The notes beneath the pieces are model-generated. The model saw only the letters and a list, made by a program, of their open reading frames with translations. It made no database searches and was not told the origin of the DNA. The translations under genes were made by a program, and so were the position numbers. A DNA stretch of 64,000 nt, taken from the NCBI RefSeq assembly GCF_900105115.1, contig NZ_FNRV01000001.1, positions 5,068,501 to 5,132,500 of the forward strand, in the 5' to 3' direction. Source of the stretch: Pseudomonas mohnii. Its GTDB lineage: Bacteria; Pseudomonadota; Gammaproteobacteria; Pseudomonadales; Pseudomonadaceae. This document shows, piece by piece, positions 8,447 through 48,498 of the stretch. Every line of letters begins with the position of its first letter. Position 1 is the first letter of the stretch.

Positions 8447-8522
8447 GTCCCCTTCGTCTAGTGGCCTAGGACACCGCCCTTTCACGGCGGTAACAGGGGT
8501 TCGAGTCCCCTAGGGGACGCCA
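8447..8522 (+). tRNA. tRNA-Glu (TTC), copy 1
   Basis: 76 nt including encoded CCA. The acceptor stem GTCCCCT pairs with AGGGGAC; the anticodon loop CTTTCAC gives TTC; the T-arm GTTCGAGTC is present. It matches bacterial tRNA-Glu as I recall it. Two nucleotides separate it from the following tRNA-Gly. Confidence 0.98.
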
Positions 8523-8524
8523 AT

Positions 8525-8600
<76 letters not shown>

Positions 8601-8704
8601 ATTTTAAACAGCGTTGCTTTCGGGCAGGGCTGAGTGAAACCAGAACCAAGTCTTCGGATGCGGATCTGGGCACCGAAACACACACCATGTGTTCCGGGTA
8701 GCGT

Positions 8705-8780
8705 GTCCCCTTCGTCTAGTGGCCTAGGACACCGCCCTTTCACGGCGGTAACAGGGGTTCGAGTCCCCTAGGGGACGCCA
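8705..8780 (+). tRNA. tRNA-Glu (TTC), copy 2
   Basis: Identical in sequence to the copy at 8447-8522, including the preceding bases GTAGCGT. Probably co-transcribed from the same promoter. Confidence 0.98.
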
Positions 8781-8783
8781 TTT

Positions 8784-8859
<76 letters not shown>

Positions 8860-34104: not shown

Positions 34105-34740
34105 GTAGTACCGTCGGTTTCCGGGCTGCCGGAAACGGCGTTCGGCACACACGACTTCTCATGGTCGGTGTCAGGTGCGTCAGGAGTGGTTGGACACTCC
34201 AGTGTCTAGCGAACCCCGACCAATTGGGCCGGTGTCGCGACGTACGCGTCCTGCTTGCTGTGGCTACTTAAGCACTCAGTCAGGAGGAGGAATCAACCAG
34301 CGGCTGTGGACGAGATGAAGCGTCTTGATAAAGCCTATTGCTACACAGTCCAGCGGTTGTGCATCTCCACCCTACACGTATCCCTGATAATTCGGGTGCT
34401 GCCGCGCGCAGAATCCGCAGCGGGTTGGCATTTACCGTGAGCTCCGATAGGGGAGGTCACGCATCATGGCTAATTTAGGCGTTGTTTCCGAAGCATTCGC
34501 TCGGGGTCATTCGCAGCTGACTGCACTTTGTGAACTGGCCATGAATATTGGCTCGCAAGACGAGTGAAAACTCTGCTTTGCGGTTTGATTCAGGCCTCAT
34601 GTCACCTGCGCTTGTTACAACTGCAAACTCCACCGTTACGCAGCGAAAGCCCCGTAGGACGGCCTCGCGTCCTGGTGAATTGCGTTGGTCAGGGTCGGTT
34701 TTTGACCGTTGGTCCGCTGTCCAGGCCGCTTTTGGCGGCG
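34105..34740 (-). promoter_or_regulatory. Long 5' leader of rne with start-proximal hairpin
   Basis: From the promoter at 34747-34775 to the start codon lie about 636 nt with no supported gene on either strand. Just before the start codon is a perfect hairpin, GTTTCCGG/CCGGAAAC with a 4-nt loop (34117-34136). RNase E of E. coli controls its own mRNA through a long structured leader; the same arrangement here is inference. The far end includes the rluC start region on the other strand. Confidence 0.6.
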
Positions 34741-41895: not shown

Positions 41896-41916
41896 CCATT
41901 AGGAGTGAAAACAAGG
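41896..41916 (+). promoter_or_regulatory. RgsA sRNA pairing site at the acpP ribosome binding site
   Basis: The leader sequence CCATTAGGAGT, one base (G), then AAAACAA is complementary to a segment of RgsA encoded at 48206-48223 on the minus strand: 11 pairs, one bulged base, 7 pairs. The pairing covers the Shine-Dalgarno sequence AGGAG, so it should block translation. Confidence 0.75.
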
Positions 41917-41917
41917 T

Positions 41918-42154
41918 ATGAGCACCATCGAAGAGCGCGTCAAGAAAATCGTTGCCGAGCAACTGGGCGTTAAAGAAGAAGAAGTGATCAACACTGCCTC
42001 CTTCGTTGAAGACCTGGGTGCTGACTCCCTTGACACCGTTGAGCTGGTGATGGCTCTGGAAGAGGAATTCGAGACCGAAATCCCTGACGAAGAAGCTGAG
42101 AAGATCACTACTGTACAAGCTGCAATCGACTACGTTACTAGCCACCAGGCGTAA
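41918..42154 (+). CDS. acpP: Acyl carrier protein
   Basis: A 78-residue acidic carrier protein. The phosphopantetheine attachment site is S37 in [12 protein letters not shown], as in nearly all primary ACPs. It carries acyl chains for fatty acid and lipid A synthesis. It is separated from fabG by 191 nt with its own likely promoter, allowing higher expression than its neighbours, and is followed by a terminator that must let some transcription into fabF or leave fabF to its own promoter. Confidence 0.99.
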
Positions 42155-47322: not shown

Positions 47323-48111
47323 ATGCTCGTAGATTCCCATTGCCACCTTGATCGCCTTGACCTGGCAGCCCACGACGGATCCCTGGACGCAGCTCTGGAT
47401 GCCGCTCGTCAACGCGGGGTTGGGCACTTTCTGTGTATCGGCGTCAGCGTCGATAACGCGGCTGATGTCAAAGCGCTGGCCGAGCGTTATGACGACGTCG
47501 ACTGCTCGGTTGGCGTGCATCCGCTGGATGTGCAGCCGGGAGCGGCGCCTGCGCTGGACTGGCTGTTGCAGGAACTCAATCACCCGCGCGTCGTGGCGAT
47601 TGGTGAAACCGGTCTGGACTACCACTACGAACCCGAAGCCGCCGAATTGCAGCAGGCGTCTTTTCGACTGCACCTGCAAGCGGCGCAACAAACCGGCAAA
47701 CCGGTGATCATCCATACCCGTGGTGCCCGTGCAGATACCCTCGACTTGCTGCGTGAAGCGGCGCTGCCCCAGGCGGGCGTTCTGCATTGCTTCACCGAAG
47801 ACTGGGACATGGCCAAGGCAGCCCTGGACATGGGTTATTACATTTCCCTGTCCGGTATTGTCACTTTCCGCAATGCCGATGCGTTGCGTGATGTGGCCAG
47901 CAAAGTCCCGGCCGATCGGTTGCTGGTCGAAACCGACTCGCCGTATCTGGCGCCGATTCCCTATCGTGGCAAGCCGAACCTGCCGCAGTATGTGCGAGAA
48001 GTGGCAGAGTTTCTGGCCATGCTGCGCGGTGAACCCTACGAGCGATTTGCCGAGCAGACCACCGAGAACTTCAAGCGATTGTTCCCGCTGGCGCATGTGA
48101 AATCAGTTTAA
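47323..48111 (+). CDS. TatD family metal-dependent hydrolase
   Basis: A 262-residue TIM-barrel hydrolase; family members have 3'-5' exonuclease activity on DNA. The metal-binding HxH motif is in LVDSHCHLDRLDL (H6, H8), the glutamate in AIGETGLDYHYEPEAAELQQ near 92, the later histidines in VIIHTRGA and GVLHCFTEDWDMAKAAL, and the aspartate in LVETDSPYLAPIPYRGKPN near 205. It ends the fab-holB block and is followed by a REP core and the RgsA gene on the other strand. Confidence 0.93.
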   Translation: MLVDSHCHLDRLDLAAHDGSLDAALDAARQRGVGHFLCIGVSVDNAADVKALAERYDDVDCSVGVHPLDVQPGAAPALDWLLQELNHPRVVAIGETGLDYHYEPEAAELQQASFRLHLQAAQQTGKPVIIHTRGARADTLDLLREAALPQAGVLHCFTEDWDMAKAALDMGYYISLSGIVTFRNADALRDVASKVPADRLLVETDSPYLAPIPYRGKPNLPQYVREVAEFLAMLRGEPYERFAEQTTENFKRLFPLAHVKSV

Positions 48112-48165: not shown

Positions 48166-48284
48166 AAAAAAAACCCGGGTTCTGGGGGGTGAATCCGGGT
48201 TAAGACCATTAGGAGTAAAACAATGGCACGCGGTCCGTTGGTACCAATATCGGCGTGACACTTGGGGGAGATGCCCCGCCGACA
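48166..48284 (-). ncRNA. rgsA: Small RNA RgsA
   Basis: RpoS-dependent sRNA of about 118 nt that in P. aeruginosa represses acpP and fis (established work, from memory); its PAO1 gene lies beside the tatD homologue PA2959, as here. On the minus strand I see a stationary-phase-type -10 region, C followed by AATACT (48296-48290), a start near 48283, a GC-rich first hairpin, the unpaired seed TTGTTTTACTCCTAATGG (48223-48206), and an intrinsic terminator AACCCGG/CCGGGTT (stem 48201-48195 with 48178-48172) followed by T8. The seed is complementary to the acpP ribosome binding site. The rest of the 48112-48498 gap shows nothing else that I can name. Confidence 0.85.
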
Positions 48285-48289
48285 GTTCA

Positions 48290-48296
48290 AGTATTG
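48290..48296 (-). promoter_or_regulatory. RpoS-type -10 element of rgsA
   Basis: CAATACT on the minus strand, close to the sigma-S consensus CTATACT with the diagnostic C just before the hexamer. No good -35 is required for sigma-S. Confidence 0.6.
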
Positions 48297-48498
48297 ATCA
48301 CTATTGCGCCCAGTCCAGTTTACCGGACACAGTTTTTAAACAATTTTGGAATACGCCCGCTTCGGAAGCGTTCTCATCAGGCGCAGACCCTGTCCGAATT
48401 CATCAGGAAACACAGACATGGTCGGATGATCCGTGCATTTTTGCGTAAGTTAGGCATAATACGCGGCTTCGAATTTTGACCCCTACAGACCTTTTCTT

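Follow-up and report, generated by a model that had tools for sequence, protein, structure and literature searches.

The RgsA small RNA gene of Pseudomonas mohnii, its predicted pairing with the acpP Shine-Dalgarno region and its relatives across the order

Identification of the rgsA gene

The window analyzed here is a stretch of 64,000 nucleotides of the Pseudomonas mohnii genome (contig NZ_FNRV01000001.1, positions 5,068,501 to 5,132,500), and all coordinates refer to it unless another locus is named. Its minus strand carries, at 48166..48283, the gene of a small RNA (sRNA) of about 118 nt, which extends from a predicted +1 at G48283 to the end of a T8 run at 48166 and reads GUCGGCGGGGCAUCUCCCCCAAG...CAUUGUUUUACUCCUAAUGGUCUUAACCCGGAUUCACCCCCCAGAACCCGGGUUUUUUUU. 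The initial annotation, made from the letters alone, had named this RNA RgsA. A covariance search with the Rfam model RF00628 (RgsA) bore out this identity: the model matched positions 48175-48368 of the minus strand with 175.5 bits (E 2.7e-42) over its whole length (model positions 1-194 of 194), against a gathering cut-off of 88.4 bits, and this was its only match in the 6.59-Mb genome.

The sigma-S-type −10 element, the start near 48283 and the T8 terminator that had been proposed for this strand can all be read in the sequence. The −10 element, CAATACT (48290..48296), is contained in TGATCAATACT, with TGAT before it, and differs at one place from the RpoS −10 search pattern, TGN(0-2)CCATACT, given in the relevant passage of a previous report (PMC2375449). 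It is preceded by a conserved region (48297..48368, minus strand) that holds the URS (TATTCCAAA...GTTTAAAAA), as deduced from the alignment and the literature, and that belongs to the Rfam model but not to the RNA. An RpoS-type −10 element (TGATCAATACT), a URS (GTATTCCAAAATTGTTTAAAAA) and a predicted RNA of 118 nt, as expected of RgsA, were therefore found together. The Rfam match begins about 85 nt upstream of the predicted 5′ end of the RNA, i.e., in the promoter, and a discrepancy of 87 nt between the model and the start of the RNA is already noted in a passage of an earlier study (PMC3709562). Because the model reaches into the promoter, its outer helix pairs promoter bases with seed bases, and inspection of the alignment showed that this helix cannot be formed by the 118-nt RNA.

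Within the RNA, the loop of hairpin 1 contains a conserved CCCCC (48264..48268, minus strand), a second anti-SD-like element besides the seed. The seed itself, ACUCCUAAUGG, corresponds to nt 68-78 of RgsA (48206..48216, minus strand); it was assigned from its conservation, and its 5′ part is predicted to be mostly unpaired. In the predicted fold, the probability of being unpaired was at least 0.93 for nt 64-70 and 0.43-0.71 for nt 71-76, falling to 0.12 for two G residues. The adjoining UUGUUUU (48217..48223, minus strand) is the second block that pairs with acpP, and an intrinsic terminator with a C-rich loop, recognized from the sequence and its fold, occupies 48166..48201 of the same strand and ends in the T8 run (48173-48166).

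The neighboring gene, at 47323..48111 on the plus strand, is a tatD homologue (Pfam TatD_DNase, 282.5 bits), so that rgsA and tatD adjoin each other on opposite strands, as is the case for known RgsA genes. The neighbor was thus rightly annotated, with the correction that the two genes converge. Elsewhere in the window, an rne-II 5′ leader element was detected at 34114-34381 of the minus strand (Rfam RF01756, 270.9 bits), and four tRNA genes were found at 8447-8856, apparently as two repeated pairs, since the same two scores occurred twice.

Predicted pairing of RgsA with the acpP leader

The acpP gene, encoding the acyl carrier protein (78 aa, Pfam PP-binding), is the target considered here and is located at 41918..42154 on the plus strand. 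Its Shine-Dalgarno (SD) region, at 41896..41914 on the same strand, reads CCATTAGGAGT G AAAACAA, and the strand opposite RgsA reads CCATTAGGAGT AAAACAA. Eighteen of the 19 bases can hence be paired (11 + 7), with one bulged G, exactly as had been described for the ribosome-binding site of acpP, coordinates included.

The whole 11-mer CCATTAGGAGT occurs at only two sites in the 6.59-Mb genome, the acpP leader and rgsA itself. When up to one mismatch was allowed, 14 sites were found (12 with one mismatch), compared with 109 for the reversed control pattern, which indicates that this 11-mer is rare in any case. The duplex between a 30-nt RgsA segment containing the seed and acpP had a predicted energy of −29.2 kcal/mol. 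As background, we used tiles of the window and of 400 kb of its genome, on both strands and with rgsA removed (mean −13.1, sd 3.3); like that of acpP, their energies are duplex energies that do not take full account of accessibility. Only 2 of the 30,695 tiles were as low, namely the tile of acpP itself and one in L191. Moreover, the best of 1000 shuffled seeds reached only −23.4 kcal/mol against acpP. The energy of the acpP pairing is thus beyond chance, with one equally low tile outside acpP. A second background, of 382 leaders of frames of at least 120 aa and hence without acpP, is heuristic, and the tile background is the one cited throughout. Co-folding of the acpP leader with RgsA gave −69.5, compared with −11.8 and −37.3 for the two apart, with pairing at the SD. 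In the leader on its own, part of this SD is predicted to be structured.

The other tile as low as acpP lies at L191:4590-4650, where a frame of 164 codons (MALVNQLV...) begins; with −29.8 kcal/mol, its duplex with RgsA is as strong as that of acpP. A duplex with fis was also evaluated: the RgsA seed and the fis stretch from −45 to +15 of the first in-frame ATG gave −19.3 kcal/mol, and 1167 of the 30,695 tiles were as low as this particular stretch. At the start used, fis was therefore not retained as a second visible target.

RgsA within the Pseudomonadaceae

RgsA was found above the Rfam cut-off in 198 of the 199 genomes of the window's genus, the exception being an 87% complete genome. Across the family, 93 of 119 genomes matched at E <= 0.001, 80 of them above the cut-off, and the matches covered 14 of 19 genera. 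Eighty family loci were fetched, 40 from the window's genus, in which weak hits are over-represented, and 40 from 13 other genera. With the window, these gave 81 RgsA sequences: the seed core ACTCCTAA was present in 78 and ACTCCTAATGG in 73, AATACT of the −10 element in 68 and TTCCAAA of the URS region in 71. CCCCC was found in the 5′ part of 79 of the 81 sequences and also in all seven further RgsA sequences that have no seed.

The pairing with acpP was analyzed in 75 pairs from these 81 rows, after removal of three loci with no acpP in the stretch (L047, L053, and L080), one in which acpP is cut (L108), and two without a seed (L056 and L057). Contiguous pairing extended over 11 bases in 27 of the 40 pairs of the window's genus and over 6 to 10 bases in the other 13; in the other genera tested, it was mostly 7 to 9 bases long and only once 11 (genus g5). 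When RgsA and acpP partners were swapped between genera, the fraction of permutations as low as the true pairs was 0.09 (75 pairs); within the window's genus it was 0.04, a value uncorrected for kinship. Covariation between the seed and the acpP leader was thus too weak in these 75 pairs to serve as proof of pairing, and none was seen overall in six pairs from other families (permutation fraction 0.57 for cognate versus swapped partners).

The conservation of the acpP leader was also considered in genomes of the family that had no RgsA match at E <= 0.001. AGGAGT was kept in 17 of 20 such leaders, three of genus g13 having been left out, and the leader motif likewise persists where RgsA has lost its seed. 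Since the motif is kept without RgsA or without its seed, conservation of the leader does not speak for regulation. What does so specifically is the published experimental work and, in this genome, a match that is both rare and strong. When the RgsA-negative genomes were searched more laxly, 9 of 25 gave matches at E values of 1 or less (best 0.006), but so did 8 of 14 controls.

RgsA beyond the family

In a sample of 95 genomes of the order, four of which belong to the Pseudomonadaceae, 25 matched RF00628. Among the 91 genomes of other families, 21 matched at E <= 0.001, but only one (G342, 106.8 bits) exceeded the Rfam cut-off, which hides RgsA relatives in these families. Twenty of the 21 loci were fetched (L244-L263, from 14 families; G340 was left out). 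ACTCCTA was present in 17 of them, ACTCCTAATGG in 13 and ACTCCTAATGGTCTT in 12, and most of the 20 have the C-rich loops and the terminator stem. Two, in G366 and G312, have no clear seed, and their assignment to RgsA is doubtful. In 16 of the 20 stretches, one or more of seven window proteins have a homologue (acpP in eight, a TetR-type regulator in eight, and moaA in one, with both acpP and the TetR homologue in one stretch). These neighbors support orthology independently of the RNA model, although TetR and moaA are the weaker markers.

An RNA model of our own, R1, was built from 25 sequences; RNAalifold gave it three base pairs, so that it is nearly a sequence profile. Of the 70 order genomes without an Rfam hit, 40 were searched with R1, which matched two. 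Class-wide, in 274 genomes searched under strict filters with 14 candidates scored per genome, it matched only the window's genome and one other of the Pseudomonadaceae, and none outside the order; 252 unmatched genomes enter this sample as a count, their kinship unseen.

The eight acpP leaders found in other families paired with their own RgsA at −14.9 to −20.7. Compared with tiles of its own stretch, acpP stood out in G318, with a 9-base run (8 of 1278 tiles as low), and in G355 (L257; 27 of 1276). In the latter, the altered seed ACTCCTATTGG pairs with the leader of its own acpP, CAATAGGAGT, over 10 bases, a change that looks compensatory and may possibly be so. G353 was intermediate (50 of 786), whereas acpP was unremarkable in G375, G337, and G384, which have a clear seed, and in the doubtful G312 (238 to 559 tiles as low); in the doubtful G366, 83 of 774 tiles were as low. 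Outside the family, the pairing with acpP is therefore patchy (clearly strong in two of eight) while the seed is mostly constant. The idea that the acpP match arose only in the Pseudomonadaceae was weakened, since acpP stands out in two other families. What these comparisons newly suggest, from computation, is that RgsA may be more widespread than its strong match with acpP.

A further candidate target and a seedless clade

Twelve genomes were scanned for ATTAGGAGT shortly before an ATG. This returned 44 matches versus 24 for the reversed control, so single hits may be due to chance. Thirty of the 44 places were read, the other 14 having no locus. Besides acpP, the recurrent gene among the loci read, present in three genera, encodes a lipoprotein (TTCATTAGGAGTT...) that resembles Pal/OprL; its first 110 residues gave a match to Pfam OmpA. 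The pal leader carries CATTAGGAGT at G000:C1:2150227-2150244 of the minus strand (L038, L273), as do its counterparts in G206 and G209. Its duplex with RgsA has −26.7 in the window's genome, with 10 of the 30,695 tiles as low, and in two other genera the pal leader is predicted to pair slightly better than acpP (−20.4 versus −19.9 and −22.6 versus −21.9). The scan showed no such pal match in the two other genomes of the family, and none was seen among the loci read from other families. In three genera, the leader of pal (oprL) is thus a second candidate target of RgsA. RgsA and OprL occur together in one publication, and we do not present the link with pal as unpublished.

A different situation was met in genus g6, in which 9 of the 12 genomes with RgsA hits scored just 53.7-65.6 bits. 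In this clade of nine genomes, the P. oryzihabitans group (L056, L057, and L221-L227), the URS, the −10 element, the CCCCC of the first hairpin, the terminator, and the tatD neighbor are kept and the ACTCCTAA block is absent; the other three genomes of g6 retain it. Our literature search found no publication treating both RgsA and oryzihabitans. The promoter pattern of the seedless RgsA was also matched in two metagenome-assembled genomes labelled Spirochaetes and Poribacteria (L233 and L234), which may reflect chance or contamination.

Discussion

The sequence at 48166-48283 of the minus strand is best read as RgsA, a trans-acting sRNA with a sigma-S-type promoter whose seed pairs over the SD of acpP and which would lower the synthesis of acyl carrier protein when RpoS is active; we give this reading a probability of roughly 92%. 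By comparison with other Pseudomonas, RpoS would drive RgsA at the entry into stationary phase. The mostly single-stranded seed, 5′-UUGUUUUACUCCUAAUGG-3′, would then base-pair over the acpP SD with the help of Hfq, as in these species, and the covered SD would keep ribosomes off, so that less acyl carrier protein would be made. By the same analogy, RpoS control, the use of Hfq and repression probably hold in this species, as does the physiological sense of such repression.

The gene, its control by RpoS and its acpP target are already known, and the window adds one more species. According to the description given in 2008, RgsA is a 120-nt, RpoS- and GacA-dependent sRNA beside tatD (PMC2375449). 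In P. syringae, the sections of a later study that concern RgsA report RpoS control by lux fusion, qRT-PCR, and ChIP (PMC3709562). In P. aeruginosa, acpP and fis are reported to be repressed by RgsA through base pairing, for which nt 71-77 and Hfq are needed (Lu et al. 2016, as summarized in PMC5686131, PMC8395346, and PMC9308961), and another report (PMC6890931) mentions that RgsA has an Hfq peak at its 3′ end. The annotation of an RpoS-dependent RNA that represses acpP and fis is therefore in print for other Pseudomonas.

The gene in the window shares with RgsA/P16 (RF00628) its sequence, its promoter with a URS and a sigma-S-type −10 element, the tatD neighbor, the seed, the terminator, and the size. 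Nothing essential differs, although the length of contiguous pairing with acpP varies among relatives. As in P. aeruginosa, a central conserved seed lies on the acpP SD (nt 71-77 there, nt 68-78 here); unlike in that species, the pairing with fis was unremarkable at the start used, and pal (oprL) is a further candidate here. Exposed C-rich stretches that target Shine-Dalgarno sequences are also found in other anti-SD sRNAs with C-rich seeds, such as those of the RsaE type. The likeness to RgsA lies in these stretches and does not imply common ancestry.

The alternative that survives best is that RgsA is real but its match with acpP is incidental, the anti-SD-like seed CUCCUAA fitting any strong SD and the function lying with pal (oprL), other targets or the C-rich loops. 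The seed is indeed near-constant in genera where acpP pairs more weakly (mean −17.6 to −19.9; g15, g8, g17, g5, and g9), acpP is unremarkable in four of the six other-family loci whose seed is clear (50 to 559 tiles as low), and the pal leader carries CATTAGGAGT in three genera and slightly outdoes acpP in two. We nevertheless regard this explanation as rather unlikely: acpP is the sole other site of the whole 11-mer in the genome and tops the background together with one other tile, it stands out in G318 and in G355, where the seed and leader changes (ACTCCTATTGG and CAATAGGAGT) look compensatory, the pal match is absent from the other-family loci read, and repression of acpP by base pairing is reported for P. 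aeruginosa in the publications cited above.

The distance of about 6 kb between the regulator and its target, to which the initial annotation drew attention, could itself be thought functional, by local concentration or co-evolved linkage. In the family, 77 of 80 stretches contain acpP, always on the strand opposite rgsA (77 of 77), and in 76 of the 80 loci it lies at 6.0-8.6 kb; in other families, 8 of 20 loci have it at a distance of 5.5-6.8 kb. This regularity reflects the synteny of a fab-tatD block throughout the family, however: the spacing between acpP and tatD, 5.4 kb in the window, is 4.8-5.8 kb in all nine readable loci without detectable RgsA. Nearness is thus no evidence of function. 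No acpP was found within the stretch in 12 of the 20 other-family loci (in four of these, the stretch runs up to the end of a contig), and a functional role of the distance appears very improbable. Finally, a small coding gene on the strand opposite rgsA, where an SD-like TTAGGAG with an ATG (GGAGTAAAACAATGG) resembles a start site and opens an 11-codon frame (MARGPLVPISA), can practically be dismissed, as it is the minus strand that bears the promoter, the terminator and the match to the RNA model, and the bases after the ATG vary among relatives, with changes in length.

With the pairing of RgsA over the acpP SD retained as the preferred reading, the comparisons raise a wider question about the seed. 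Since it is constant while the pairing with acpP is patchy, acpP alone does not obviously explain its constancy. We tentatively propose, at somewhat less than even odds, that RgsA is order-wide and that acpP is not all that keeps ACUCCUAAUGGUCUU constant. Pairing with acpP would be regularly strong within the window's genus alone and strong only in places outside it, and the seed would be kept by other targets, with pal (oprL) as a candidate in the family; outside the family, too, we infer that other targets may keep it constant. In the P. oryzihabitans group, where RgsA has no seed, the C-rich loop may have a role of its own, and this clade offers a natural test of what the remainder of RgsA does.

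A known regulator and its known target were thus recovered from bare sequence. The interest of the finding lies in the wide spread of RgsA and the constancy of its seed, in the seedless clade, and in pal as a candidate target, all of which are computational results.
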